From the IMG/VR virus record IMGVR_UViG_3300032088_000017, positions 1 to 44,015 of that record: a stretch of 44,015 nucleotides of DNA; one strand, written 5' to 3'. The position numbers and the translations under genes are program-made. The notes beneath the pieces are model-generated. The model had not been told where the DNA came from, searched no databases, and worked only from the letters and a program-made list of their open reading frames with translations. Every line of letters begins with the position of its first letter. Position 1 is the first letter of the stretch. Source of the stretch: a virus. Positions 3,218 to 21,212 of the stretch are shown in pieces.

Positions 3218-3225
3218 TATAAATA
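3218..3225 (+). promoter_or_regulatory. T4-type late promoter TATAAATA
   Basis: An exact match to the T4 late promoter, which is recognised by host RNA polymerase carrying gp55 and activated by gp33 and the sliding clamp. It directly follows the terminator and lies 24 bases before the ATG at 3250, so it heads the long late operon up to about 14.3 kb. Confidence 0.85.
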
Positions 3226-3249: not shown

Positions 3250-4608
3250 ATGTTTACAAAGATGAATAAAACCGAGTGGAGTAAAACGAAAGCTGGTACA
3301 AATACGCTTCGTACAGATATCTTAAAAAATATCATCCGCAAAGGTTTGCCTGTCTCATCTTTTGATGGAAAAGACATTTTCATAAACAACAGTCGTGACA
3401 ATCACGATGTTATTGACGCGTTTTTAGATAGCAAAGACGAAACTTTTACTGTTAAAGCTATAAACGGATCAGACGTAAATTCCTTATCGATAGGTAAGTC
3501 TGCAGTATTTGGCGGTAAAGGCCAAGGAGCTGGTGCTACCGGAAAAACCGCAGAAGGCGAGTGTTTGCAGTGCGTATATCTTTGCGCTATGCTTGCCATA
3601 GGAACACGGCATCCGTTTGCACGCTATACACCAGAGTTGCTTAAACAGTACCATGCAGACATAGATGTTGATTTACCTTTTGAAAAATATATGACGGCAG
3701 CGCCGGCATGGCACCACTCTGCATACGTATCAGCTATAGAACTTATAAACAAGGGATATGTCAACAAGACACACACCTTACATCGTGGCTCTAAGGCTAT
3801 GCAAGCAATTTACGATGCACAGAAGAAAGCGTATGCTAATGATGGTAAGCGTCCGATCCAAGGTGACAAATGGAATCCAGGCGATATATGGGCAATTAAA
3901 AAAGGCTTTAATCCTCGTACCCTTAACACGTCTTCGCTCATTGCGCTCAATGGCGAAATTAAAGGCATGTTTATACAAAGGGAAATGGTAGGTATTTCTC
4001 TTAAGCAGATAGAAAAGTTAACTGACAAACCTAAGATAAGTGAATACAATTTAGACGCCACTAAATTAGACTCACATGAATTTACGCGCGCGACGCTTAT
4101 TACATCAAATCGTAAAGGCGCGCAGATGTGGTCGTCAAAGGGTGGTTACTTCTTTTTTGACAGAACTCGGTACGGCGATGTGCGCGCATCTAATCAGTTT
4201 GCTACGGTAGGATTTGAATTAGCAGGCCAAGGCGCAAGAGGTGGTCGTGCAGGTAATGCAGACCTTGTTAAATGGTGTGCTCTATATTTTAAAAAGGTAA
4301 TACCAACCAACGCTCAGCTCAAGGCTACGGCCAAAGCTATGGTCGGTGGTAAAAAAGAAAATTTAAATAAAGATATGTTTAAACTGTGTAAAATAATACA
4401 TCCAGATCTCGATTATGATGAGTGGGTTGTTGGACTGTCAAGCGCAGCTGCACATCAAATCCACGCAAATTTAGGAGCAGCGCATATATTAGCTGCTGTC
4501 GTAGGTGGAAATAGGATGTCGCAAAGATTGTTTACATCGACGCTTGTAAACAAAGCAGCGTCTAAAGGCAATGAAAGCTCAGTATACATGAAAATAGAGA
4601 AAAAATAA
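3250..4608 (+). CDS. Conserved late protein of unknown function, possible nuclease fold
   Basis: A 452-residue protein heading the late operon. I chose the ATG at 3250 because GGAG lies 7 bases upstream; a TTG three bases earlier is less well spaced. Visible landmarks are a Gly-rich loop GGKGQGAGATGKTAEGECLQC (about residues 87-107), the segment GDKWNPGDIW (about 206-215) and a Gly-rich GQGARGGRAGNAD near 330. KWNPGDIW, an Asp followed by hydrophobics, resembles the metal-binding strand of some restriction-endonuclease-like phage proteins, but this is a pattern impression only. The stop overlaps the next ATG by one base. Confidence 0.75.
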   Translation: MFTKMNKTEWSKTKAGTNTLRTDILKNIIRKGLPVSSFDGKDIFINNSRDNHDVIDAFLDSKDETFTVKAINGSDVNSLSIGKSAVFGGKGQGAGATGKTAEGECLQCVYLCAMLAIGTRHPFARYTPELLKQYHADIDVDLPFEKYMTAAPAWHHSAYVSAIELINKGYVNKTHTLHRGSKAMQAIYDAQKKAYANDGKRPIQGDKWNPGDIWAIKKGFNPRTLNTSSLIALNGEIKGMFIQREMVGISLKQIEKLTDKPKISEYNLDATKLDSHEFTRATLITSNRKGAQMWSSKGGYFFFDRTRYGDVRASNQFATVGFELAGQGARGGRAGNADLVKWCALYFKKVIPTNAQLKATAKAMVGGKKENLNKDMFKLCKIIHPDLDYDEWVVGLSSAAAHQIHANLGAAHILAAVVGGNRMSQRLFTSTLVNKAASKGNESSVYMKIEKK

Positions 4609-5837
4609 TGCAAAGCTTTAGTCAACATATCATTGAAAATAAAAATACACATATGACTCATATCGAAGATAAAGTTATCTACGGTGGAGTCAAAGGTACG
4701 CGTGATGCTATTAATGCCCTACGGTCTTTACGCGACATGCTTAAAGGAGAACATGATGGAAACGTTAGTGTTAAGTGGGATGGTGCACCTGCTGTTTTTG
4801 CTGGTATTGATCCGAGTGATGGCAAGTTTTTTGTTGCTAAAAAAGGGATATTCAATAGGAATCCAAAGGTCTACAAATCTGCAGCTGATGTTGATGCTGA
4901 CACTTCTGGTGATCTTGCTATTAAACTTAAAGATGCTCTCGCATACTTGCCAGCCCTTGGGATTAAAGGGGTTATTCAAGGAGATTTCCTATTCGGCCGC
5001 GGAGACGTTGAGACCAATAAGATAAAAGGTGACACATATGTCACCTTCCATCCAAATACCATTGTATATGCTGTACCAGCAAATACGCCTGCTGCTGCTG
5101 ATATTAAAAAGGCAAAGGTCGGAATTGTTTGGCACACTACATACGTTGGTAACTCGTTTGAAACAATGCGAGCCAAATACGGTGTAAACGTTAAAGCACT
5201 TAAAAAATCTAAAAACGTATGGTCACAGGATGCAATGCTTCGCGATTTAACAAAAGTGACAATGTCAAAAGCAGATACAGATGAAGTCAATGGATACCTT
5301 AGCGATGCCGGTAAAATCTTTAATAAGATCTCTGGTTCAACGCTCCGTACGCTTGAAGCTAACAAGCAGTTATCTAGCCTCATCGAAACCTACAATAATA
5401 GTTTTGTCCGTGCCGGAACAAGTCCAGGCGATAGTGGCCGGCACGTCGATGGACTGATTAAGTGGGTGCACGCACGATTTAAAAAAGAAATGGACAAGCG
5501 ATCTACCGATAAAGGTAAAGCTGTACAACAAAAAAAATTAGACGACATACTAGCATTTTTCTCGCCACAGAACAAATCTGGATTAAAATTTATGTTTGAT
5601 TTGCAAAAATTGATCGTGCTAGTGAAGTTAAAACTTATAAATATATTAAACAGATTAGCAAAGATTAAAACCTTTGTTAAGACGCGTAATGGTTATAAAG
5701 TAACAGGCGAAGAAGGCTATGTTGCGATTGATAAACTTGGTGGTGATGCTGTAAAGATAGTTGACCGTATGGAATTTTCGGCCAATAACTTTTCGCCTGA
5801 TATATTAAAGGGATGGGACAAACCGGGAAGGAAGTAA
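4608..5837 (+). CDS. ATP-dependent ligase-like nucleotidyltransferase, putatively packaged
   Basis: A 409-residue protein with the signatures of covalent nucleotidyltransferases (ATP-dependent DNA and RNA ligases): motif I VKWDGAPAVF with candidate AMP-accepting Lys56, a motif-III-like GVIQGDFLFGR (about 121-131), and C-terminal EGYV (about 369) with Lys383 in VKIVDR, resembling motifs IV and V. The expected reaction is sealing of nicked RNA or DNA; the substrate cannot be read from sequence. The first residues (MQSFSQHIIENK) resemble the T4 capsid-targeting leader, so the enzyme may be loaded into the head and injected. It is coupled to the genes on both sides. Confidence 0.75.
   Translation: MQSFSQHIIENKNTHMTHIEDKVIYGGVKGTRDAINALRSLRDMLKGEHDGNVSVKWDGAPAVFAGIDPSDGKFFVAKKGIFNRNPKVYKSAADVDADTSGDLAIKLKDALAYLPALGIKGVIQGDFLFGRGDVETNKIKGDTYVTFHPNTIVYAVPANTPAAADIKKAKVGIVWHTTYVGNSFETMRAKYGVNVKALKKSKNVWSQDAMLRDLTKVTMSKADTDEVNGYLSDAGKIFNKISGSTLRTLEANKQLSSLIETYNNSFVRAGTSPGDSGRHVDGLIKWVHARFKKEMDKRSTDKGKAVQQKKLDDILAFFSPQNKSGLKFMFDLQKLIVLVKLKLINILNRLAKIKTFVKTRNGYKVTGEEGYVAIDKLGGDAVKIVDRMEFSANNFSPDILKGWDKPGRK
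5636..5643 (+). promoter_or_regulatory. TATAAATA inside the ligase-like gene, low confidence
   Basis: An exact late-promoter octamer, but nearly 200 bases from the next start and in coding sequence; noted for completeness. Confidence 0.2.
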
Positions 5838-5838
5838 C

Positions 5839-6267
5839 TTGGCACAGCTAGGTTTTAAAGATTATATTAATGTGGACCTGAAACCAGGCGCCACAGATCA
5901 AGAAAAATATAATGCAAAGAAGCGCAAGACGTATGACGAAGCAATAGATGACGAACAAGTAGAAGCCTTGTCGTTAAAGGCTCGCCGTAAACGCCAGATG
6001 GATATGCGCAAGAATAAGAACAAATTAAAAATCGGGCGTAGCCGCGCGATGAAACGCGTCGCTAATCCTGAGCGAATCAAGAAGCGCGCGAAGAAGCAAG
6101 CTATGCGTGACATATACAAGAAGCTTGCAAAAGGTGTCCCTAAATCTGATATGACGCCGGCCAAAAAGGCAGAGCTTGAGCGCCGCGTCTCTAAAATGAA
6201 ACCTCGTGTTAGCAGGATGATGAAGAAACTCATGCCGACCGTACGTGCAAGGGCTCACGGTAGATAA
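5839..6267 (+). CDS. Highly basic putative internal head protein
   Basis: A 142-residue protein rich in Lys and Arg throughout (KARRKRQMDMRKNKNKLKIG, KKRAKKQAMRD and more), strongly suggesting it binds DNA or the scaffold core inside the capsid. It starts at a TTG at 5839 behind GGAAGGAAG; no good ATG exists before the conserved-looking start GFKDYINVD, which again resembles a capsid-targeting leader. It follows the ligase-like gene by one base and lies in the same late operon. Families like this are common in marine T4-like phages, and their exact role is not established. Confidence 0.75.
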   Translation: MAQLGFKDYINVDLKPGATDQEKYNAKKRKTYDEAIDDEQVEALSLKARRKRQMDMRKNKNKLKIGRSRAMKRVANPERIKKRAKKQAMRDIYKKLAKGVPKSDMTPAKKAELERRVSKMKPRVSRMMKKLMPTVRARAHGR

Positions 6268-6271
6268 TATT

Positions 6272-7330
6272 ATGATAAGTAGATTTAGTCAATTTTTAGT
6301 AGAAGAAGAGCAGGTATGCTATTTTGTGTTCGGCCGGATGAATCCGCCAACAATAGGGCATGGCCGACTATTAGACGTGCTAGCTAAGCAAGCGGGCCGT
6401 AACAACTATAGAATATACCTATCACAATCCCAGAACAATAAAAAAGACCCTTTGTCATATTCTGACAAAGTTAAGTTTTGTCGTAAGATGTTTCCTCGAT
6501 ATGCTCGATCTATTATTATTGACAATAAAGTCAAAACACCGTTTGACGCGCTGACTGCCATTTACAATAGTGGCTGTAAAAAGGTTGTCATGGTAGCAGG
6601 CAGTGATCGTGTTGATGAGTATAAAACACGATTAAATTTGTACAACGGAAAAAAAGGCAAGCACGGTTTTTATAACTTTGAAGGCGGGATTAAGGTCGTA
6701 TCAGCCGGCGCCCGTGATCCTGATGCTGAAGGCGTTGAAGGCATGAGCGCTTCTAAAATGCGGAAGTACGCCACAGACGGTGACTTTACTAAGTTTGCAC
6801 AGGGTTTAGGTAAAAGTATTTCTACTGCCGATGCTCGCAAGTTGATGAACGCGGTACGCTCAGGTTTAGGCCTAAGAGAAACAACAAGTTTCCAGAACCA
6901 TATTCAATTAAGCCCAGTATCAGAAAGACGTGAGCAATTTGTGAGCGGAACACTTTTTGAGCTAGGTGAAATGGTAGTTATCAAGGATACAGATGAAGTC
7001 GGTAAGATTACACTTATCGGATCTAATTATCTTATCGTCGAGTCAGGTCAGAAGAAACTGCGTAAGTGGATTCACGATGTCGAGCATCTTGAAGAAGATA
7101 ATACAAAAAGCATGTATGCTGATAAACCTGACTGGGGTACAGATGCGTCTGCTCAAAAAGCAAAGCGCATGACACCCAACGAGGCCAATACAACACATAA
7201 CAATTATGGTATTCCCAAGGGTGCATCGCTAAGCGACCTTGATAAAATTTACAATACCACAACTAACAAGCAGAAAAAAGAGCGGGCGCATTGGTTGCGA
7301 AACATGCGCAGAGGAGCTAATAAAAAATGA
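6272..7330 (+). CDS. HIGH-motif nucleotidyltransferase-like protein, putatively packaged
   Basis: A 352-residue protein. After the leader MISRFSQFLVEEE comes a cytidylyltransferase/NMNAT-type Rossmann domain: FGRMNPPTIGHGRLL, with TxGH at residues 27-30, and the downstream MSASKMRKYA corresponding to the ISSTxxR-type motif. Such enzymes transfer a nucleotidyl group, as in NAD or CDP-compound synthesis. About residues 225-285 may form a KOW-like barrel (LGEMVVIKDTDEVGKITLIG), and the tail is polar. I start at the ATG at 6272; the Shine-Dalgarno is weak. The leader suggests entry into the prohead. The substrate is unknown. Confidence 0.75.
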   Translation: MISRFSQFLVEEEQVCYFVFGRMNPPTIGHGRLLDVLAKQAGRNNYRIYLSQSQNNKKDPLSYSDKVKFCRKMFPRYARSIIIDNKVKTPFDALTAIYNSGCKKVVMVAGSDRVDEYKTRLNLYNGKKGKHGFYNFEGGIKVVSAGARDPDAEGVEGMSASKMRKYATDGDFTKFAQGLGKSISTADARKLMNAVRSGLGLRETTSFQNHIQLSPVSERREQFVSGTLFELGEMVVIKDTDEVGKITLIGSNYLIVESGQKKLRKWIHDVEHLEEDNTKSMYADKPDWGTDASAQKAKRMTPNEANTTHNNYGIPKGASLSDLDKIYNTTTNKQKKERAHWLRNMRRGANKK

Positions 7331-8946
7331 ATAAACTAAAATCATTTAAAGACATTGCTCAAGAAAACGCAATGCATTTGTTAAAAAAAGAGCTTGCCAA
7401 AGAAGCTAAAAAGGCAGCAATAAATCCTTCAGACGCCGAAGAGGCAAGTGAAGAAAAAACGATGTATTGCAAAGATTGTGGTTGTGAAAAGGGTAAGCCT
7501 GATCCTGATTGCACGTGCGAAAACGATTGTAATAATTTAACTGCAGCACAATGCACTACTGAAAAATCTAAATGTAAATCTTTGAAAAAAGAAGCAGTCA
7601 ACGAGTATGGCGGGCCGCACATTTCTCGTAAAGATTATCTCAAGCCTATGCCATACAAAGGCGAAAAGGTATCTGTTAAAAACGAGCTAACAATTGCTGA
7701 TGTCCAAAATGCCACTGCAATGGCAAAGAAACGTCAAGACAAAGAACGTAAAGCCGGAAAGAAAAGTGTATCAACAACTGATCTTGCAGCACGTATGCCT
7801 AAAAAAGAAGCTCAAGATCCAAAGCATGTTAAGCAGGCAGTTGGCATTGCATCTGATCCTAGGTACAAGGGCGGAAATATGACAGGCGCAACTAAGGTGA
7901 TTAATAAACTTTCAAAAGGTTTGTCAGATCATCCTCAAGTTAAAGCCGTATTAAAACGTCAGAACGAAGACGTCAACGAGATTTCGCAGGCAACCAAGGA
8001 TCGATATGTTGCCCGCGCGTCTGGCGCAGCACAAGTCGGTGCTGTACAAAGTAAATATATGAAGGGCGACGCTAAAGACAAAAATGATAAGATGGTTGCA
8101 AAACGTCAAGCCGGAATAAAGAAAGCAGTCGGCGAAGAGATGACTATGCCAATGGGCAAAGTTTCAAAACTTCCTACATACACTAATAACAAGCAAAATG
8201 ACGACAAGAAGGCTGAGATCAGAAATGATTTAAAAGCTTTACGGGGTCGACTTGCTAAATTGTCTCGCACCAAACAAGAAGCACACCTAGATTATAACCC
8301 GGCAAAGGGCGGCTACAATCAACCTAAAGACAAAGAAGTTGGTAAAAGAGTCGGCACACGTGAAGACAAACAAGTTAAGAGTGCAGACAAGCGCCCGGTC
8401 AATGTGAATGTCGATGGTAAGATTGTGACACGCATGGAACCAGTTGTAAAACGTAAAGCGGATAAAGAAGTCTCAGAGCTTTCAAATCATAAGATGAGCC
8501 AATACCGAACTAAAGCCTATGACGACGCTGGAGCAAAATGGGCAGCCGGAGATACTGATAAAGCTAAAGCAAGAGTAAAAGGCGTATCTAAAGCTACGGA
8601 TAAGATGGACAAGAACAGAGTTTCTGAGCTTTCAAATCATACAATAGACTCATATAAAAAGAAGGCCAAGGTTTCGATTAATAAGGCCGCAGACACATAT
8701 GATTATAAGACTGCTATGAAGCGTACGCGTGGCTTTGGTCATGTCCTTAACAAAGCCAAAAAGTCTGGAACTAATGAAGATTATAAAATCACTAAAATTT
8801 ATAATCCGACAACAAGAAAATCACGAGCGGCTGGCACGAGCACGGCGACATATGCTGTTCATACCCATGATCGTAAATATTTCAAAGAGTTTCCAAATCA
8901 AAAAGACGCGGAAAAACATATGAAATCTATGGATAAGAAAAAGTAA
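7327..8946 (+). CDS. Large Lys-rich repeat protein, putative prohead core or internal protein
   Basis: A 539-residue hydrophilic protein, about a fifth Lys, with no membrane segment. It begins MNKLKSFKDIAQENA, has a Cys-rich patch at about residues 47-85 (CKDCGCEKGKPDPDCTCEND), and carries repeats of the form VSELSNHxxxxYxxKA near residues 385-460, plus a related EISQATKDRYVARA near 218. Repeats of this kind occur in internal proteins of T4-like marine phages. It overlaps the upstream gene by 4 bases. A scaffold, core or injected DNA-binding role is inferred from composition and context only. Confidence 0.7.
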   Translation: MNKLKSFKDIAQENAMHLLKKELAKEAKKAAINPSDAEEASEEKTMYCKDCGCEKGKPDPDCTCENDCNNLTAAQCTTEKSKCKSLKKEAVNEYGGPHISRKDYLKPMPYKGEKVSVKNELTIADVQNATAMAKKRQDKERKAGKKSVSTTDLAARMPKKEAQDPKHVKQAVGIASDPRYKGGNMTGATKVINKLSKGLSDHPQVKAVLKRQNEDVNEISQATKDRYVARASGAAQVGAVQSKYMKGDAKDKNDKMVAKRQAGIKKAVGEEMTMPMGKVSKLPTYTNNKQNDDKKAEIRNDLKALRGRLAKLSRTKQEAHLDYNPAKGGYNQPKDKEVGKRVGTREDKQVKSADKRPVNVNVDGKIVTRMEPVVKRKADKEVSELSNHKMSQYRTKAYDDAGAKWAAGDTDKAKARVKGVSKATDKMDKNRVSELSNHTIDSYKKKAKVSINKAADTYDYKTAMKRTRGFGHVLNKAKKSGTNEDYKITKIYNPTTRKSRAAGTSTATYAVHTHDRKYFKEFPNQKDAEKHMKSMDKKK

Positions 8947-8947
8947 A

Positions 8948-9055
8948 ATGCAACCTGAAATACCAGTCTTAGATGAAGAACACAATAACTGTGGAACACC
9001 AGACTGTTGTGGCGAATGCGATACAGCGGGCAAAGGCACGGACGAAGATGATTAG
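8948..9055 (+). CDS. Cys-rich micropeptide
   Basis: A 35-residue acidic peptide containing CGTPDCCGEC, a tight cluster of four cysteines that could bind zinc or a metal. It starts two bases after the previous stop and overlaps the next gene by 8 bases, a tiling typical of real phage genes. No family is recognised. The competing frame that would start inside it at 8973 is less likely, because the downstream gene has a better start at 9048. Confidence 0.55.
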   Translation: MQPEIPVLDEEHNNCGTPDCCGECDTAGKGTDEDD

Positions 9056-9311
9056 ATTTAAACAGTATATTGCAGAAAAAGGCGATGACGCAAAAGGCCA
9101 TTTCATTCCGACTGAAAAGGGGGCTGGGATGACACCTAAGGGTGTTAAGGCATATCGCGCGAAAAATCCTGGCAGTAAGCTTAAAACTGCCGTCACAGGT
9201 AAGGTAAAAGCCGGCAGCAAAGACGCTGGCCGCCGCAAATCATTTTGCGCAAGATCAAAAGGCTGGACTGGCGAACGAGGCAAAGCTGCTCGTCGTCGGT
9301 GGAAATGCTAG
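9048..9311 (+). CDS. DUF6321-like small basic protein
   Basis: An 87-residue protein with the pattern I know from the DUF6321 family of T4-like phages: KGAGMTPKGVKAYRAKNPG, then LKTAVTGKVKAGSKDAGRRKSFCAR and a basic C-terminus ending RRRWKC. I chose the ATG at 9048, giving MIRFKQYIAEKGDD, whose FxxYIAE matches the T4 capsid-targeting leader (MKTYQEFIAE) closely, with a likely cleavage after the Glu. The role is unknown, but DNA binding inside the head is plausible from its charge. An extended start at 8973 would hide this leader. Confidence 0.8.
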   Translation: MIRFKQYIAEKGDDAKGHFIPTEKGAGMTPKGVKAYRAKNPGSKLKTAVTGKVKAGSKDAGRRKSFCARSKGWTGERGKAARRRWKC

Positions 9312-9323
9312 GAAATACGAATT

Positions 9324-9602
9324 ATGGAAAAGTCAGAAGGTCAACGCCTCGACCGTATAGAAGAAAAGATTGATAGGTTGTCAGAAGCACTCATAAGTAT
9401 CGCGCGTTTTGAAGAAAAGCTCGAAGCCTATAACAGGTATCGTGAAGATTCTTGGAATCGTATGAATAAGTTTTCTGAAAAACTAGATAGTATCGAATTA
9501 CAGGTGCAGGACAACGCACATACTGTAGCAATTATAAATAAATTATTCTGGGTAGTTATTGTAGCTATCTCAGGAGCAATAGCAGCCCAGATTTGGATGT
9601 AA
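9324..9602 (+). CDS. Coiled coil with C-terminal transmembrane anchor
   Basis: A 92-residue protein. The first about 70 residues form heptad-like helices (LDRIEEKIDRLSEAL, FSEKLDSIELQVQDNA), followed by one transmembrane segment (LFWVVIVAISGAIAAQI) at the C-terminus. The architecture resembles XhlA-type and similar lysis-associated proteins, and it matches a family I know from marine T4-like phages. It sits in the late operon upstream of the spanins, so a holin-accessory role is possible but unproven. Confidence 0.7.
   Translation: MEKSEGQRLDRIEEKIDRLSEALISIARFEEKLEAYNRYREDSWNRMNKFSEKLDSIELQVQDNAHTVAIINKLFWVVIVAISGAIAAQIWM
9533..9540 (+). promoter_or_regulatory. Possible internal late promoter TATAAATA
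   Basis: An exact TATAAATA inside the 9324 gene, 73 bases upstream of the ATG at 9613. It could add late transcription for the downstream genes. In AT-rich coding DNA an occasional chance match is expected. Confidence 0.35.
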
Positions 9603-9612
9603 GGAAAAAACA

Positions 9613-10665
9613 ATGAAAACACAAGACATAAAAAATATGGCCCTTGCATTCCAAGCGGTCACCGAAAAGTACGGTAAGAAAAAAGAGGATGCGTATAACG
9701 ACGCGCGCCCTGGTACCAAGCAGAATCAAAAAGATTTTGATAAGGCTTCTAAAATGGCAGCGCCAAAAGATAAAGTATCTTTAAAGCCTATGCCACCCGC
9801 CTTAGCTAAGAAAATGGCTAAAGACGAAGGCTATGCATCTGCTGCCCAGCGTGCAGCAGTTTGGGCAGACCGAGCCGATGGCGGCAAAGGTCATCCTGAT
9901 AATAAAAAGAAGAAAAAGGCAGAGGGTTTGTGGGATAACATCCGCAAGCGCCGCGAAGCTGGTAAGCCTAAGAAGAAGCCAGGCGATAAAGGCTACCCTA
10001 AAACGCTTAACGTTGAGTCAGTCGAAGAAGCATTCGAGCCGCACATGATGTATGATCCTAAAACAGGCAAAGGATATAAGGCTGAAAAAGAAGCCGACCA
10101 TCTTCGCATGAAAAAAATGGGATACACTCATGATAAGCCTGCTACTAATGAAGCCCTAAAAGGCGATCAGCATAAACTAGATCACGATAAAGACGGTGAC
10201 ATTGACGCGGCAGATTTTAAAGGCTTGCGCAATAAAAACAAAAAAGACAAAAAGTCTGAAATGGAAGTTAAGCCTAATCAGAAGCAAGACGATGATAAAG
10301 GTGCTGTAGCTGAAAAGGCAAAGTGCTCTTCTTCTTATAAGAAAGAGTCAACTGAGCTTGAAAATCTTGAAACTCAAGTCGAGCAGACATATCAAGGTGT
10401 TCAATCAGGCATGCGTCAAGCTATGATGCAGATGTGGGAAAAGGCCTCGCACACAGGCGGCGCGCCAGCTGAAGAGATCGATTCAAAAGATTCTCCGACT
10501 GCCAAAAAAATGAAGGCTGACCATAAGGCCGAAGTTAATGACGTTGAAGAAAAAGGTCATGTTGATGCAGCACAAGCTGGTCGCGCAGGACCATCTGCCA
10601 AAGCTCGCCCAAATGATAATATGAAAGGCGATAAGGCAATTATTAATCCAGTGAAAGGAAAGTAA
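9613..10665 (+). CDS. Lys-rich internal-type protein with an EF-hand-like loop
   Basis: A 350-residue, very hydrophilic protein. Landmarks are SAAQRAAVWADRADGG near residues 76-91, a WDNIRKRREAGKPKKKPG segment (about 107-124) also familiar from other marine-phage internal proteins, and an EF-hand-like calcium loop DHDKDGDIDAAD at 190-201 with acidic residues at loop positions 1, 3, 5, 7, 9 and 12. GGAAAAAAC lies before the ATG. Composition and position suggest a core or packaged protein; calcium binding is inferred from the loop only. Confidence 0.7.
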   Translation: MKTQDIKNMALAFQAVTEKYGKKKEDAYNDARPGTKQNQKDFDKASKMAAPKDKVSLKPMPPALAKKMAKDEGYASAAQRAAVWADRADGGKGHPDNKKKKKAEGLWDNIRKRREAGKPKKKPGDKGYPKTLNVESVEEAFEPHMMYDPKTGKGYKAEKEADHLRMKKMGYTHDKPATNEALKGDQHKLDHDKDGDIDAADFKGLRNKNKKDKKSEMEVKPNQKQDDDKGAVAEKAKCSSSYKKESTELENLETQVEQTYQGVQSGMRQAMMQMWEKASHTGGAPAEEIDSKDSPTAKKMKADHKAEVNDVEEKGHVDAAQAGRAGPSAKARPNDNMKGDKAIINPVKGK

Positions 10666-11019
10666 ATGGCAATCACACCACCTAGCTGGGCGAAGAACGC
10701 TGTGCCAACTCCAAACGGTTGGCAGGATCCTCGCTCAGGTGAATTATTGAAATCACAGCGTATTGGCCAAGCTGACATCGATGCATATAACGGAGTTACT
10801 GCTCCTGCACCGGTTGCGCCTGCGCCTACGCCCGTAGCCACAGTCGAAATTGAAGAGGAAGTAATGCAACAACTAAATGAAGCGCCTGTTAACAACACTT
10901 CGATTGATAATATGACTAAATTTCAGCTTGAAGCCCTAGGCCGAGAGTATGGTGTCGAGTTAGATCGTCGTAAATCAAAGGCCGCACTAGTAGATGAGGT
11001 CAAATCACTTACTGAATAA
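10666..11019 (+). CDS. Conserved phage protein with LEM/SAP-like C-terminus
   Basis: A 117-residue protein directly abutting the previous stop. It starts with MAITPPSWAKNAVPTPNGW, a pattern recurrent in T4-like marine phages, has a Pro/Ala linker (PAPVAPAPTPVA, about residues 46-57) and ends in a two-helix module (MTKFQLEALGREYGVELD then KAALVDEVKSL) resembling SAP/LEM-type DNA-binding helices. It may tether DNA or a partner in the head. Function is not established. Confidence 0.75.
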   Translation: MAITPPSWAKNAVPTPNGWQDPRSGELLKSQRIGQADIDAYNGVTAPAPVAPAPTPVATVEIEEEVMQQLNEAPVNNTSIDNMTKFQLEALGREYGVELDRRKSKAALVDEVKSLTE

Positions 11020-11022
11020 TTG

Positions 11023-11030
11023 CATAAATA
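11023..11030 (+). promoter_or_regulatory. Variant late promoter CATAAATA
   Basis: One mismatch to the T4 late consensus in the short gap between two late genes. It is well placed: a start near 11036 would leave a 25-base leader with GAGAA before the ATG at 11061. Confidence 0.45.
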
Positions 11031-11060
11031 AGTTTGAAATATAATTTATTTGAGAACATA

Positions 11061-11426
11061 ATGCAATTTGAAAATGTAAGCGAAAGTAACTTGTTGTTAT
11101 ATGCGGCAAAGAACTATCATAATCCTTTGGGCGCAAGCTCAGAGGATTTTTATGAAGATTTAAAAAGGTTTACTTACGTAAAAAGGCTAGTAAACAAATA
11201 TTTGCAGACCAAGGAATTACCTGAAAGGCTGATATTAAATCATCTAATAGTAATTTTTAATATGTTTGGTATTGAAGCTGGTTGTAAAATTCTAGAACTT
11301 AAACTAGATGATGAGCACTGGCCAGTAATAAAACCATTTTTGATCTTCCTGCGCTATATCGATAATAAACAATACGCCGAACTACATATGAACAAACATG
11401 TTGTCGAGGCCCTAAGGAAGATATAA
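11061..11426 (+). CDS. DUF7207-like conserved late protein
   Basis: A 121-residue helical protein. I chose the ATG at 11061 with GAGAA upstream, giving MQFENVSESNLLLYAAKNY. A TTG at 11034 would lengthen it over the promoter-like CATAAATA. The sequence pattern (KRLVNKYLQTKELPERLILNH, then FNMFGIEAGCKILEL) matches a family I know from cyanophages, always near structural genes. Its job is unknown. Its stop overlaps the next start. Confidence 0.75.
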   Translation: MQFENVSESNLLLYAAKNYHNPLGASSEDFYEDLKRFTYVKRLVNKYLQTKELPERLILNHLIVIFNMFGIEAGCKILELKLDDEHWPVIKPFLIFLRYIDNKQYAELHMNKHVVEALRKI

Positions 11427-11992
11427 TGGGTATTTTAAAGAAGTCTGCTGACTTAGTTTATACATTTAGATTTCTAAAATTACTTGTCACACCATTTGAC
11501 AAGACTAAAGCCTTTGAGCTTGGTCTTATTGACGACAAGGGTAAAAAACTAAAGAAATCTGAAACATCAGCCGAAAAGGATGCGTTAACGCCGTTTATAC
11601 GTATGGTATTTAATATCAAAAAATTAATACCTGCAGGTAAGATCGGATCATACGCATCAGCATTATATTTGCTTAAAGAAACATTTGGCTTGACCAATAC
11701 AAGCGTTGATAAGATAATTGTCGAGTCTGGCATCGATCCATCGTCATTACTTGCCGAGCAAACCGCATGGTTTATGCTTGAAGACAAACAGCTTTCACCC
11801 GGAACATATCGCATAAATCACACAAAGGCTATCAATGCTACGTGTGAAGAAGTCGTTAATCGTAATGACAAAGTGCGGATATTAGATGACTCATATCCTA
11901 TTGGCGATATTCGAGGCATCGATATATACGAAGCAATACATATAAATACTATGCAAAAGATATACGTATCATCTATGGAGCTAATTAAATGA
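11426..11992 (+). CDS. Conserved T4-like structural-type protein
   Basis: A 188-residue protein overlapping its neighbours on both sides. It contains KIGSYASALYLLKETFGL (about residues 71-88), with the remainder including ESGIDPSSLLAEQTAWFMLEDK and YEAIHINTMQKIYVSSMELI. I recognise this pattern from proteins of marine T4-like phages annotated as structural or hypothetical. It is soluble, with no catalytic motif seen. The neighbourhood suggests a virion or assembly role. Confidence 0.7.
   Translation: MGILKKSADLVYTFRFLKLLVTPFDKTKAFELGLIDDKGKKLKKSETSAEKDALTPFIRMVFNIKKLIPAGKIGSYASALYLLKETFGLTNTSVDKIIVESGIDPSSLLAEQTAWFMLEDKQLSPGTYRINHTKAINATCEEVVNRNDKVRILDDSYPIGDIRGIDIYEAIHINTMQKIYVSSMELIK
11941..11948 (+). 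promoter_or_regulatory. Possible internal late promoter TATAAATA
   Basis: An exact TATAAATA 41 bases upstream of the ATG at 11989, inside the preceding coding region. It could reinforce late expression of the next gene; chance occurrence is possible. Confidence 0.35.
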
Positions 11993-12228
11993 TTAACTTT
12001 AAAAACTACATAGCAGAAGACAAGGCTGGAACTTCGTTCGCTGATAAGTCAAAAAAATCTGGCATATCAACTGGTGTACTGCGCAAAGTGTACAACCGCG
12101 GTGTTGCCGCATGGAAGACAGGGCATCGTCCTGGAACTACGCCATCACAGTGGGGACACGCGCGCGTTAATGCCTTTATTGTTAAAAAGAAAAAAGGTGG
12201 CCTAAATCACGACAAGGATTTAGCTTAA
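11989..12228 (+). CDS. DUF5824-like protein with a capsid-targeting-type leader
   Basis: A 79-residue protein. After MINFKNYIAEDK, which matches the FxxYIAE capsid-targeting pattern, comes KSGISTGVLRKVYNRGVAAWKTGHRPGTTPSQWGHARVNAF, a block I recognise as DUF5824, widespread in large phages either alone or fused to other domains. The function is unknown; the Trp- and Arg-rich motif suggests nucleic-acid or protein binding. It overlaps the previous gene by 4 bases and is followed after one base by the kinase gene. Confidence 0.8.
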   Translation: MINFKNYIAEDKAGTSFADKSKKSGISTGVLRKVYNRGVAAWKTGHRPGTTPSQWGHARVNAFIVKKKKGGLNHDKDLA

Positions 12229-12229
12229 A

Positions 12230-13630
12230 ATGAAAACCCGGCAAGATCCAGATATTAAAGCGCGTGATGGCACGCAACCAAAAAACCATTATGCCGGATT
12301 GAAAAAAAAGACTAAGGTTGCGCGTGATAAACACTTTAATAAAAATAGCAAAAAGTCTGACAGTGATCCAAGCGCATATAAACCAGCGCCAGGCGATAAG
12401 ACTGCTAAAACAAAAACATCGACATATACAAAACAGTATAAACAAATGTACGAAGATAAAGTTACAAAGAAACAGCTAAATTCACTTGAAGCCATACTCG
12501 ATAAAGTATTTGCTAAAATCGGTATGGATGTAGAATTTACTCGTCACTTCTTAGATCGTGTCAACGATGCTCGCAACAAGACACAGATCACGCCTAAAGA
12601 ATTGGCATTGCTATTTAAAAAAGAGTACATCAAATGGGGCAAGCCTATTGCTAAGATGGGCGACGACGCTGAAGGTGTTATGAAGGATTTAGAGTCTGAC
12701 ATAAACATACCGTTTGTACTCAACTGGAACGCCGATAAAAAAGAATTAGAAATGGTGGCCAAGACTGTTATGAGAAAAAAGAATTTTACATCCCCTGACC
12801 GTAAGTTTCCGGTAGAAAGCGTAAACGAAGGTGTTAACGATCCCGCTATATTTCATGCTGTGTTTTTAGCCGGCGGCCCGGGCTCAGGCAAATCGTTTAT
12901 GGTTGGCCAAACTGCTCTGACTGCTCTTGGCTTTAGAATTATTAACTCTGACAACGCATTTGAAATGGCTATGAAGAAAGCAGGCATGGACACTACGCCT
13001 GAAAATATATTCTCGGTCAAAGGGCAAACAATACGCAAGGGTGCTGCTACACTTACTGTTAAGAAAATGGAAATAGCTTTGAAAGGTCGTCTCGGTCTTG
13101 TAATCGATGGTACAGGCAAAGATTACGCTAAGATCGCTAAGCAGGCAGCTAAGCTTCGTGCGCTTGGCTATGAAGTTGCTATGATATTTGTTAACACAGA
13201 TAAGCAAACGGCTATAGATAGAGATGCCAAGCGTAAAAGAACGTTGGGCCCAGAAGTTGTAACTAAGATGTGGGCAGATGTCCAGAAGAATATAGGTAAA
13301 TTTCAAAACTTATTTCGTAACAAAATGTTTGTAGTCGATAATAGCGAAGGGTCAAATTGGCAAGGCGCTACTATGGCAACATACAAACAAATTAAAAAGT
13401 GGTCTGAGAAAGAAGCATCGAACGGTATTGCTAAGAAGTGGATCGCGCAAGAGCGTAAACCCAAGCCGCCTACTGTTAGAAAAGAAGATGTTCCTGGAAC
13501 CTCTACTACTTCAGTTGTGGGCGCTGGTAATAATCCTACAGGCACGGTAGTAGTTGATAGACGCCGGCGCAAAGACAAACACCCAAAGGTGCTAAAGAAA
13601 TTTAGAAAGTATTTAGAAAACGATGGTTAG
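12230..13630 (+). CDS. P-loop kinase fused to a phage head-associated domain
   Basis: A 466-residue protein in three parts. Residues 1-80 are a Lys-rich linker. About 85-190 hold a conserved phage domain (VEFTRHFLDRVNDARNKTQI, then FVLNWN). From about 200 there is a nucleotide kinase with Walker A GGPGSGKS at 215-222, followed by FRIINSDNAFE and LVIDGTGKDY. The kinase resembles zeta-toxin and polynucleotide-kinase P-loop proteins. In relatives I know it is usually a separate gene whose start leads into EGVNDPAIF; here that junction reads VNEGVNDPAIF, suggesting a fusion. The phosphate acceptor is unknown. Confidence 0.8.
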   Translation: MKTRQDPDIKARDGTQPKNHYAGLKKKTKVARDKHFNKNSKKSDSDPSAYKPAPGDKTAKTKTSTYTKQYKQMYEDKVTKKQLNSLEAILDKVFAKIGMDVEFTRHFLDRVNDARNKTQITPKELALLFKKEYIKWGKPIAKMGDDAEGVMKDLESDINIPFVLNWNADKKELEMVAKTVMRKKNFTSPDRKFPVESVNEGVNDPAIFHAVFLAGGPGSGKSFMVGQTALTALGFRIINSDNAFEMAMKKAGMDTTPENIFSVKGQTIRKGAATLTVKKMEIALKGRLGLVIDGTGKDYAKIAKQAAKLRALGYEVAMIFVNTDKQTAIDRDAKRKRTLGPEVVTKMWADVQKNIGKFQNLFRNKMFVVDNSEGSNWQGATMATYKQIKKWSEKEASNGIAKKWIAQERKPKPPTVRKEDVPGTSTTSVVGAGNNPTGTVVVDRRRRKDKHPKVLKKFRKYLENDG

Positions 13631-14069
13631 AATTTACGTCTTTATTTTTATTGTAGGAACCTTAGGCAGTGTTGCCTGGGGAGCTAAATGGTATTATGAA
13701 GACACACAAGCTAGACTAACACAATTAAGAGAGAATAATGTTAAATTGGTCGATGCAGCAGAAACGCTGCAAACTACAGTAGACCAACTTGAATATGATG
13801 CCGAACAATCTCAGCTCAATGTTGCTGAATTGCAGAAGAAACTTAAAAAATCTGAAGCCGGCCTTGATCGACTGAGAAAAAGATTTAGTGAAATTGATAT
13901 TACGAGGGACGCATTAGCAGATCCTGCAGACCTCGAACGGAGAATTAATCGTGGCGTTGACAGACTCATACAAGACATATTTAAAGATACTGGCGGTATC
14001 ACTGCTGACACTCCCACTGATGGGATGCCTGAGGAGCAATCAGGAACCGACAGTAGTAACGAAGACTGA
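13623..14069 (+). CDS. i-spanin (Rz-like) inner-membrane lysis protein
   Basis: A 148-residue protein with an N-terminal membrane anchor (about residues 3-20, YVFIFIVGTLGSVAWGA) followed by a long coiled coil (about 28-98, rich in Gln, Leu and Glu) and an acidic tail. This is the layout of an i-spanin, which spans the periplasm and, with its lipoprotein partner, fuses the two membranes at the last step of lysis. The partner gene starts inside it in another frame. It overlaps the kinase gene by 8 bases and should be expressed late. Confidence 0.85.
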   Translation: MVRIYVFIFIVGTLGSVAWGAKWYYEDTQARLTQLRENNVKLVDAAETLQTTVDQLEYDAEQSQLNVAELQKKLKKSEAGLDRLRKRFSEIDITRDALADPADLERRINRGVDRLIQDIFKDTGGITADTPTDGMPEEQSGTDSSNED

Positions 14070-14337
14070 ATTCATCTATCCTAATATTCAGTTACAAGAA
14101 CCACCAAAACCAGTTGACATGCCAGATGTCGAGTGGTTTGTTGTTAATGAAGAAACACTTGACGAATTTATAGAGCGCGTCAAGGCAGTTGGCGGTGTGC
14201 CTGCCTTTATTGCTATTACTCCAAAGGGCTATGAAAATCTCGCAATCGGCATTAATGATTTGCGCAGATATGTTCTACAACAGACCGAAATTATTGTGTA
14301 TTACGAAAAATCTATTTCGGAAATGGGTCCTAAATAA
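13951..14337 (+). CDS. o-spanin (Rz1-like) outer-membrane lipoprotein
   Basis: A 128-residue lipoprotein precursor. It starts at a GTG with GGAG 8 bases upstream, inside the i-spanin gene (119-base overlap). The signal peptide ends in the lipobox LMGC, with Cys26 as the lipidated residue. The mature part is Pro-rich at first (PNIQLQEPPKPVDMPD), then helical, longer than lambda Rz1. It should sit in the inner leaflet of the outer membrane and bind the i-spanin. The embedded start is typical of Rz/Rz1 pairs. The last base lies next to a putative NrdR box. Confidence 0.85.
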   Translation: MALTDSYKTYLKILAVSLLTLPLMGCLRSNQEPTVVTKTEFIYPNIQLQEPPKPVDMPDVEWFVVNEETLDEFIERVKAVGGVPAFIAITPKGYENLAIGINDLRRYVLQQTEIIVYYEKSISEMGPK

Positions 14338-20345: not shown

Positions 20346-21212
20346 ATGCTGACCGAACAAGAATTAGCTAAGCTAATCCCCGGAAACAAAGACGTAGGCG
20401 CTTGGCACGAAGCCTTGGCTGCTATTATGCCAAAGTATGGCATCACATCTAAACGAAGGATCGCGCATTTTATTTCTCAGTGCGCGCATGAATCTAATAA
20501 TTTTCGTAGTTTATCTGAAAATCTAAACTACAGTGAGAAGGCATTGAACGCTGTGTTTGGCCGCTATTTTGGCACAGGCGGAACCAAACGTAACGCAGCA
20601 GAATACGCACGCAACCCAGAGAAAATTGCTAATTATGTTTATCAGGACGAGTTTCGTAAATATAAAATGGGCAATGTAAATCCAGGTGACGGATGGTTGT
20701 TCCGCGGCCGCGGCCTAAAGCAACTTACCGGACGTGAAAACTATACGCGATTTGGCAAATCTGTTGGTATGACTGCAGAACAAGCAGCAAGCTATGTTGC
20801 CACACCAAAGGGTGCTGTTGAGAGTGCATGCTGGTTTTGGGATGCAAACAAGTTAAACAAGATTGCAGATACTGACGACGTGAAACGCATGACTAAGAAA
20901 ATCAATGGCGGTAATATCGGACTAGCTGATCGCCAGTCTAGGTATGTGAAGGCAATGTCAGTCCTTGGTTCACCTATTGCAGTTGACGCTCTCAACGACG
21001 ATGATGATGCACCAGACATCGATGATATTGGTGTATTGCGCAAAGGTTCACGTGGCGCAGGCGTTAAGATGATGCAAGAAGCATTGGGCATCGGTGCAGA
21101 CGGATCGTTTGGTCCAGGCACAGAACGAGCTCTTAAGAAGTGGCAAGCAGCAAAAGGCTTAACACCTGATGGTATTGCCGGACCAAATACTTTAGAAAAA
21201 CTTCTCGGTTAG
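20346..21212 (+). CDS. Endolysin: GH19 domain plus peptidoglycan-binding domain
   Basis: A 288-residue modular lysin. Residues 1 to about 215 are a glycoside hydrolase family 19 (chitinase/lysozyme-like) domain with catalytic Glu49 in CAHESNNF, then RGRGLKQLTGRENY and INGG. About 225-288 form a peptidoglycan-binding-1 domain (LRKGSRGAGVKMMQEALG, GPGTERALKKWQ). It would cut glycan strands after release to the periplasm. No signal peptide is seen, so a holin is needed. AAGGAG precedes the ATG. A promoter follows at once. Confidence 0.93.
   Translation: MLTEQELAKLIPGNKDVGAWHEALAAIMPKYGITSKRRIAHFISQCAHESNNFRSLSENLNYSEKALNAVFGRYFGTGGTKRNAAEYARNPEKIANYVYQDEFRKYKMGNVNPGDGWLFRGRGLKQLTGRENYTRFGKSVGMTAEQAASYVATPKGAVESACWFWDANKLNKIADTDDVKRMTKKINGGNIGLADRQSRYVKAMSVLGSPIAVDALNDDDDAPDIDDIGVLRKGSRGAGVKMMQEALGIGADGSFGPGTERALKKWQAAKGLTPDGIAGPNTLEKLLG

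Follow-up and report, generated by a model that had tools for sequence, protein, structure and literature searches.

The window analysed here, the 44,015 nucleotides of IMG/VR record IMGVR_UViG_3300032088_000017, is a 44-kb fragment of a marine, Kyanoviridae-like T4-type phage in which four genes of unrelated families begin with the same short leader. We consider it very probable that this is a T4-type capsid-targeting leader, cut by a gp21-type prohead protease, through which a group of enzymes is packaged. Relatives give packaging good support: leader-bearing relatives of the window proteins are present in published virion mass spectrometry, in line with the packaging proposed in the initial annotation of this stretch. 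That these particular window proteins are packaged too, we infer by analogy.

Both the capsid-targeting sequence and cutting at L/I-x-E are known from T4 (PMC9026906). We propose that the F-x-x-[YFH] half of the leader would dock each protein on the prohead core during head assembly, that a gp21-type protease would cut after the Glu of [IL]-x-E and free the enzyme inside the head, and that the freed enzyme may be expected to reach the host together with the DNA. The cargo set of the window cluster would comprise DUF6267, an NMNAT/cytidylyltransferase-like protein, DUF6321, DUF5824 and a kinase that follows an internal cut site in a fusion protein (Table 1). The initial annotation had delimited the set at 4608-12228. 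This span holds as far as it goes, and its end is to be moved to 13630, because the kinase fusion at 12230 retains a cleavage site at its inner junction.

A T4-like leader on unrelated protein families

The N-termini initially quoted for the genes at 4608, 6272, 9048 and 11989 were all present where they had been placed, and their likeness to T4 MKTYQEFIAE was matched in register (F4, Y/F/H7, I/L8, E10). Genes 4608, 9048 and 11989 share M-x-x-F-x-x-[HY]-I-x-E with F4, Y/H7, I8 and E10, and 6272 has the same register displaced by one residue. The leaders with their predicted cuts (slash) are MQSFSQHIIE/N (4608, DUF6267), MISRFSQFLVE/E (6272, cytidylyl/NMN-adenylyl-transferase-like), MIRFKQYIAE/K (9048, DUF6321) and MINFKNYIAE/D (11989, DUF5824); all four have the L/I-x-E motif at the cut. 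The looser versions described for 5839 (TTG start, GFKDYINV) and 7327 (FKDIAQE) are also present, with scores of about 7 (about 1e-4 each as 7-mers), weak and insufficient alone. A leader on every cluster gene was ruled out, since 3247, 11426 and 12230 are without one. Start codons of 4608, 7327 and 11989 are unambiguous. For 6272 the start was chosen over an overlapping GTG at 6245 because homologues begin at 6272, and 9048 is the likely start despite a longer in-frame ATG at 8973, because the homologue in locus L375 has a stop three codons upstream of its leader Met.

Scores derive from a 7-residue matrix whose training set, 286 unique leaders, came exclusively from uncultured loci. Since a pattern had been used to choose these leaders, the matrix partly restates it, and its worth lies in ranking unseen genomes. 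A plain regular expression was too loose as the sole test (UvsX false positives; p=0.057 for S-CREM2), and the matrix was used instead. All four leaders scored about 20, against a maximum of 6.3 among 232 internal-methionine controls of the same window. With their own family left out of training they still scored 16.8-19.9, which none of 200,000 random 7-mers matched. High scores were confined to 4 of the 17 open reading frames (ORFs) of the cluster versus 0 of 65 others (Fisher p=0.001, with the cluster boundary set by us).

Across 158 related viral loci, the strict motif occurred in 464 of 2936 ORFs versus 52 of 10223 internal methionines (0.5%), on many unrelated families. In the commonest Met-to-Phe spacing F is residue 4, which is also the T4 arrangement. 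Mapping in T4 IPIII assigned residues 4 and 7 to targeting and 8 and 10 to cutting (PMC9026906), and it is these positions that the leaders here conserve. As a positive control, the matrix ranked T4 IPIII and IPII (MKTYQEFIAE) second and third among 280 T4 ORFs. Rank one was the hypothetical gp61.1 (MKTFKEFIKE/DMVAGD; NC_000866 18966-19130, minus strand; L569), which adjoins gene 61, a flank of the cargo block in many marine relatives. Judged by its N-terminus, gp61.1 should be a further internal head protein.

The orthologous cluster of Phage C48C1 carries MLDFKNFITE, MLSFKQFVSE, MIKNFSQYLLE, MITFKKYLEE and MKKFKQYIDE. The annotated start of its cytidyltransferase is too late; an upstream GTG (L001 19622-19687) restores both the leader MIKNFSQYLLE and the conserved domain start. 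All 80 closest DUF6267 orthologues have a leader directly before KNTHMTHIED, in a set biased by having been gathered partly with a probe over that region; E10 is invariant and F4 is kept in at least 90%. Residues 1-10 of DUF6267 are unfolded in the predicted model (confidence, pLDDT, <50). Constant packaging of DUF6267 is unsupported, the cyanophage versions (P-HM2, S-SM1, S-SZBM1) being without a leader.

The packaged set first proposed proved too small: in relatives, a SAM hydrolase, several kinases and a Cas9-like protein also have the leader. Other leader-bearing families include RimK-like ATP-grasp (Melnitz), zeta-like kinases (L143 and many more) and several unnamed ones. An HD_4 (SpoT/MESH1-like) phosphohydrolase with leader MLNFKSHMNE (L114 8779-9345) may be a packaged alarmone hydrolase, and a 239-residue leader protein (MKPFRKFITEE; L116 16824-17540) has a weak KptA/Tpt1-type match (E=0.03). 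S-SCSM1 ORF30 (L466 44203-44535) and its S-SZBM1 counterpart (122314-122643, minus strand) carry a perfect leader, MKTFKQFMSE/SVNISG, among structural genes.

Virion proteomes, the gp21 protease and fusion junctions

In Synechococcus phage S-CREM2, 52 of 219 proteins were detected in virions (PMC10665884, Table 3), and the top four leader ORFs by matrix were all among them (p=0.003). These are the cytidylyltransferase gp154 (MKNFSSFLTE/A), the SAM hydrolase gp6 (MKDFDSFLEE/F), the 78-residue gp13 (MKDLHSFLTE/Q) and the APH-like kinase gp14 (VKRFDAFLTE/E). Virion-detected Cas9-like gp12 (L465 7704-10313, minus strand) has the motif after 16 residues (LRFASFMAE/A), and its homologues in L572, L573 and L574 keep it after about 16 residues (GFSSFLKE/A). 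In four phages with mass spectrometry, 7 of 9 ORFs scoring at least 14 were virion-detected (p=2e-4); counting each family a single time gave 4 of 5 (p=0.009). The orthologues of 6272 (S-SM1 gp190, S-SZBM1_140, S-SCSM1 ORF91 and S-CREM2 gp154) were all detected and all have a leader. S-SM1 T4-GC190, found in virions (PMC3037559), begins MKKFSAFLNE/A, and the detected S-SCSM1 NMNAT begins MKSFLQFLKE/A (PMC9602691). In S-SZBM1 the cytidylyltransferase with leader MRFRQFIIE/A was detected, and the neighbouring DUF6267 without leader is not among the proteins reported as detected (PMC9146016). S-CRM01 virions were reported to contain a Ser/Thr kinase (cited in PMC10665884); an S-CRM01 kinase related to S-CREM2 gp14, which may be the detected one, begins MISFDQFLSE/K.

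The protease was found in all 10 relatives searched and in T4. Its motif-predicted sites in gp23, FLTE/TGP (C48C1), FLSE/AAP (Melnitz) and LLTE/APT (S-CREM2), and at the gp21 N-terminus of relatives, CIVE/A, LIAE/A, YITE/A and LLTE/E, match the leader sites in their [IL]-x-E. At their C-termini most of these gp21 proteins have F-x-x-F-[LM] (e.g. AFETFLKSL), which resembles the leader's targeting half; this was seen in L007, L010, L011, L012, L556, L558 and S-SCSM1 (L471 3307-3957) and is absent from T4 gp21. The S-CREM2 gp12 C-terminus, KTFRDFLN, is a second copy of the targeting half. Overall, leader-like C-terminal tags occurred in 1.36% of tails versus 0.66% of internal stretches, with the signal in few families (gp21 and the 12230 tail). 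We regard a C-terminal tag as a lead suggested by these motifs. Separately, a 69-residue S-SCSM1 virion protein, ORF93 (L467 11627-11836), has C-terminal leader-like RTFKEFLEYIE.

Fusion proteins kept the cut site. Standalone P-loop kinases (GVNDPAIF...GGPGSGK) are preceded by hydrophobic-x-E in 64 of 64 distinct copies, nearly always as the end of a leader and otherwise of a short hydrophobic-x-E start, and all three fused copies, including 12230, keep it at the same position. In fused DUF5824, [ILMF]-x-E stands at the leader position in 9 of 9 copies, two of which keep the whole leader. Counting V, M and F beside L/I, the site was thus kept at 12 of 12 junctions and the targeting half mostly lost, as expected if every domain needs cutting but each polypeptide needs targeting only once. 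HTVC008M-type DUF6267 has a leader reduced to LLVE/D or LLNE/D with L-x-E retained, and in L198 the motif SFKSYINE lies inside a fusion. It is improbable that the junction Glu is instead part of the domain edge in several unrelated domains together, though for any single domain it may be.

Alternative roles of the leader and known systems

Several points weigh against packaging by a cleaved leader. The window, a 44-kb fragment, lacks gp21, and the virion proteomes are those of other phages. The residue after the cut (P1') is often E/Q/D/K here, not A. The four virion-detected cytidylyltransferases are orthologues, hence not independent, and for leader-bearing DUF6267 the virion evidence comes from other families only. 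S-SCSM1 ORF30 and its S-SZBM1 homologue, one 110-residue family, were not among the reported virion proteins. For S-CREM2, a plain regular expression applied to annotated starts yielded only p=0.057, and the authors of that study noted that enzymes in CsCl fractions might have been co-purified (PMC10665884).

Among the alternatives, it is unlikely, though the least so, that the leader packages proteins which are not injected but remain in the particle, with a role in head assembly or DNA condensation. In favour are the small size and strong basicity of several cluster proteins (5839, 9048) and an influence of T4 IPIII on head assembly (PMC9026906); against it, the cargo includes catalytic families (SAM hydrolase, kinase, NMNAT-like, zeta-like kinase, HD hydrolase) for which no assembly role is evident. 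Somewhat less probable still is a docking tag for another complex (replication/takeover or membrane), with unpackaged enzymes acting in the producing cell. This would suit a cluster that lies between the replication genes gp41 and gp61 in many relatives, and the loosely similar start of UvsX (MSFLNDIAKE), but published virions are enriched in leader-bearing proteins, the same matrix also retrieves T4 internal proteins, and docking alone does not predict the hydrophobic-x-E kept at fusions. We give very little credit to the reading that late genes with high expression carry a translation-related feature or an N-degron whose likeness to T4 is accidental: the leader is short, N-terminal, mostly in operon-like genes and has TATAAATA sites close by, but the F-x-x-Y-I-x-E spacing and invariant E are conserved at the protein level, and the motif also occurs inside the L198 fusion and partly at C-termini, beyond the reach of initiation effects.

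A capsid-targeting leader has precedents. As in T4 IPI, IPII and IPIII, an N-terminal 10-residue leader with key positions 4, 7, 8 and 10 and an L/I-x-E cut motif precedes unrelated mature parts. Unlike the T4 internal proteins, the cargo here is larger, enzyme-like and from conserved families, the first aromatic is Phe instead of Tyr, P1' is more often E/Q/D/K, and sites also occur in domain fusions. To our knowledge, the head proteins of SPN3US and phiKZ share no short leader of this kind. Like the cargo proposed here, they are packaged and matured by a gp21-related protease (PMC9026906). T4 Alt, an injected ADP-ribosyltransferase, is likewise a head-packaged enzyme whose N-terminal propeptide gp21 cuts (PMC9026906), but its start, MELITELFDE, scores low with the matrix (1.3) and it belongs to another enzyme family. 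Comparable too are the virion enzymes of S-SM1, S-SZBM1, S-SCSM1, S-CREM2 and S-CRM01, with an orthologous cytidylyltransferase/NMNAT and a kinase and SAM hydrolase bearing the leader; the consulted portions of those reports name no packaging signal for them. A review has suggested that T4-like phages may load varied proteins by the capsid-targeting sequence (PMC9026906).

Proposed cargo genes of the window and their meaning

Among named relatives, Phage C48C1 is nearest (65% identity across DUF6267), followed by Stenotrophomonas phage DLP_6, Methylophilales phage Melnitz and Pelagibacter phage HTVC008M. The cluster at 3247-13630 matches gene blocks between gp41 helicase and gp61 primase/RNR in HTVC008M, Melnitz, Syn9, S-SM1 and P-HM2. 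Besides the T4 late-promoter-like site in Table 1, others, at 3218 and 9533, lie directly upstream of cluster genes; the window holds 10 versus 4.4 expected, a modest excess only (2 of 100 shuffles reach 10).

Table 1. Features of the proposed cargo cluster (positions in the window)
Feature	Position	Strand	Evidence or remark
DUF6267 / phrog_455 protein, 409 aa	4608..5837	+	Pfam DUF6267 E=7.5e-99
DUF6267 leader MQSFSQHIIE	4608-4637	+	predicted cut after E10 (/NKNTHM)
Basic 142-aa protein, weak leader LGFKDYINV, TTG start	5839..6267	+	C48C1 homologue has full leader MLSFKQFVSE
Cytidylyltransferase / NMNAT-like protein	6272..7330	+	PF01467 E=3.6e-4, phrog_395 E=6.8e-60
Its leader MISRFSQFLVE	6272-6304	+	
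539-aa Lys-rich protein, several V-x-E sites, weak leader MNKLKSFKDIAQE	7327..8946	+	
DUF6321 protein, 87 aa	9048..9311	+	PF19846 E=6e-11
DUF6321 leader MIRFKQYIAE	9048-9077	+	homologue L375 begins at own leader
T4 late-promoter-like TATAAATA	11941..11948	+	41 bases upstream of gene 11989
DUF5824 C-terminal half, 79 aa	11989..12228	+	PF19141 E=2e-18
DUF5824 leader MINFKNYIAE	11989-12018	+	standalone homologues led by MINFKxYIxE-type leaders
Fusion: DUF5824 N-half, middle domain, zeta/PNK-like P-loop kinase (GGPGSGKS)	12230..13630	+	AAA_33 E=2.6e-10, Zeta_toxin E=4e-9; N-terminal leader absent
Fusion junction VESVNE/GVNDP	12812..12829	+	hydrophobic-x-E retained directly before kinase domain
C-terminal VLKKFRKYLENDG, leader-like F-x-x-Y-L	13589..13627	+	conserved in standalone homologues

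DUF6267 conserves K56-W-D-G, G125-D126, E369-G-Y-V and K383, with invariant motif-like residues, a pattern that we take to resemble ligase motifs I, III, IV and V. The first model (pLDDT 66) gave meaningless fold matches only; with the second (pLDDT 75), ligases were among the best unrelated matches, weakly so (8rbj tRNA ligase, E=0.10; RNA ligases, E=0.06-0.5), and a PDB sequence search with DUF6267 gave no convincing match. DUF6267 is a plausible candidate member of the covalent nucleotidyltransferase (ligase) superfamily. For the ligase-like enzyme of the initial annotation, KxDG and EG motifs are present, but the fold matches are weak and the identity is hypothetical. The nucleotidyltransferase-like enzyme was borne out by HxGH-type and ISSTxxR-type motifs in 6272 (GRMNPPTIGH, MSASKMR), its PF01467 match lying only just above the cut-off; PDB sequence searches with this protein and with the kinase gave no match. 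Profile searches (Pfam, phrog) gave no family match for 7327, and a PADLOC search nothing of weight. Beyond the cluster, overlapping genes for a membrane protein and a lipoprotein-like protein (13623-14069 and 13951-14337) resemble Rz/Rz1 spanins and are accompanied by a chitinase/peptidoglycan-binding endolysin (20346-21212).

We found no literature naming a capsid-targeting sequence in cyanophages or pelagic phages, in a search that left subscription journals mostly outside, so that an earlier report is possible. Three points are new: conserved enzyme families carry the leader across marine T4-like phages, the leader agrees with published virion proteomes, and fusions retain its sites. More tentatively, and with less than even confidence, the motif at either terminus might be a plug-in address that loads changing enzyme sets into the heads of T4-like ocean phages, making the injected repertoire readable from sequence. 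SAM hydrolase and a Cas9-like nuclease could then be anti-defence cargo, and the set here (ligase-like DUF6267, PNK/zeta-like kinase, NMNAT-like protein) a possible end-repair/NAD-repair kit delivered before phage gene expression.

Cyanophage studies have repeatedly found virion enzymes and left undecided whether these are true cargo or contamination; a packaging signal readable in the sequence would decide between the two. For T4, the phage studied best, it would predict gp61.1 (MKTFKEFIKE/D) as an internal head protein, and it would allow the injected proteins of common ocean viruses to be predicted from genomes and metagenomes.

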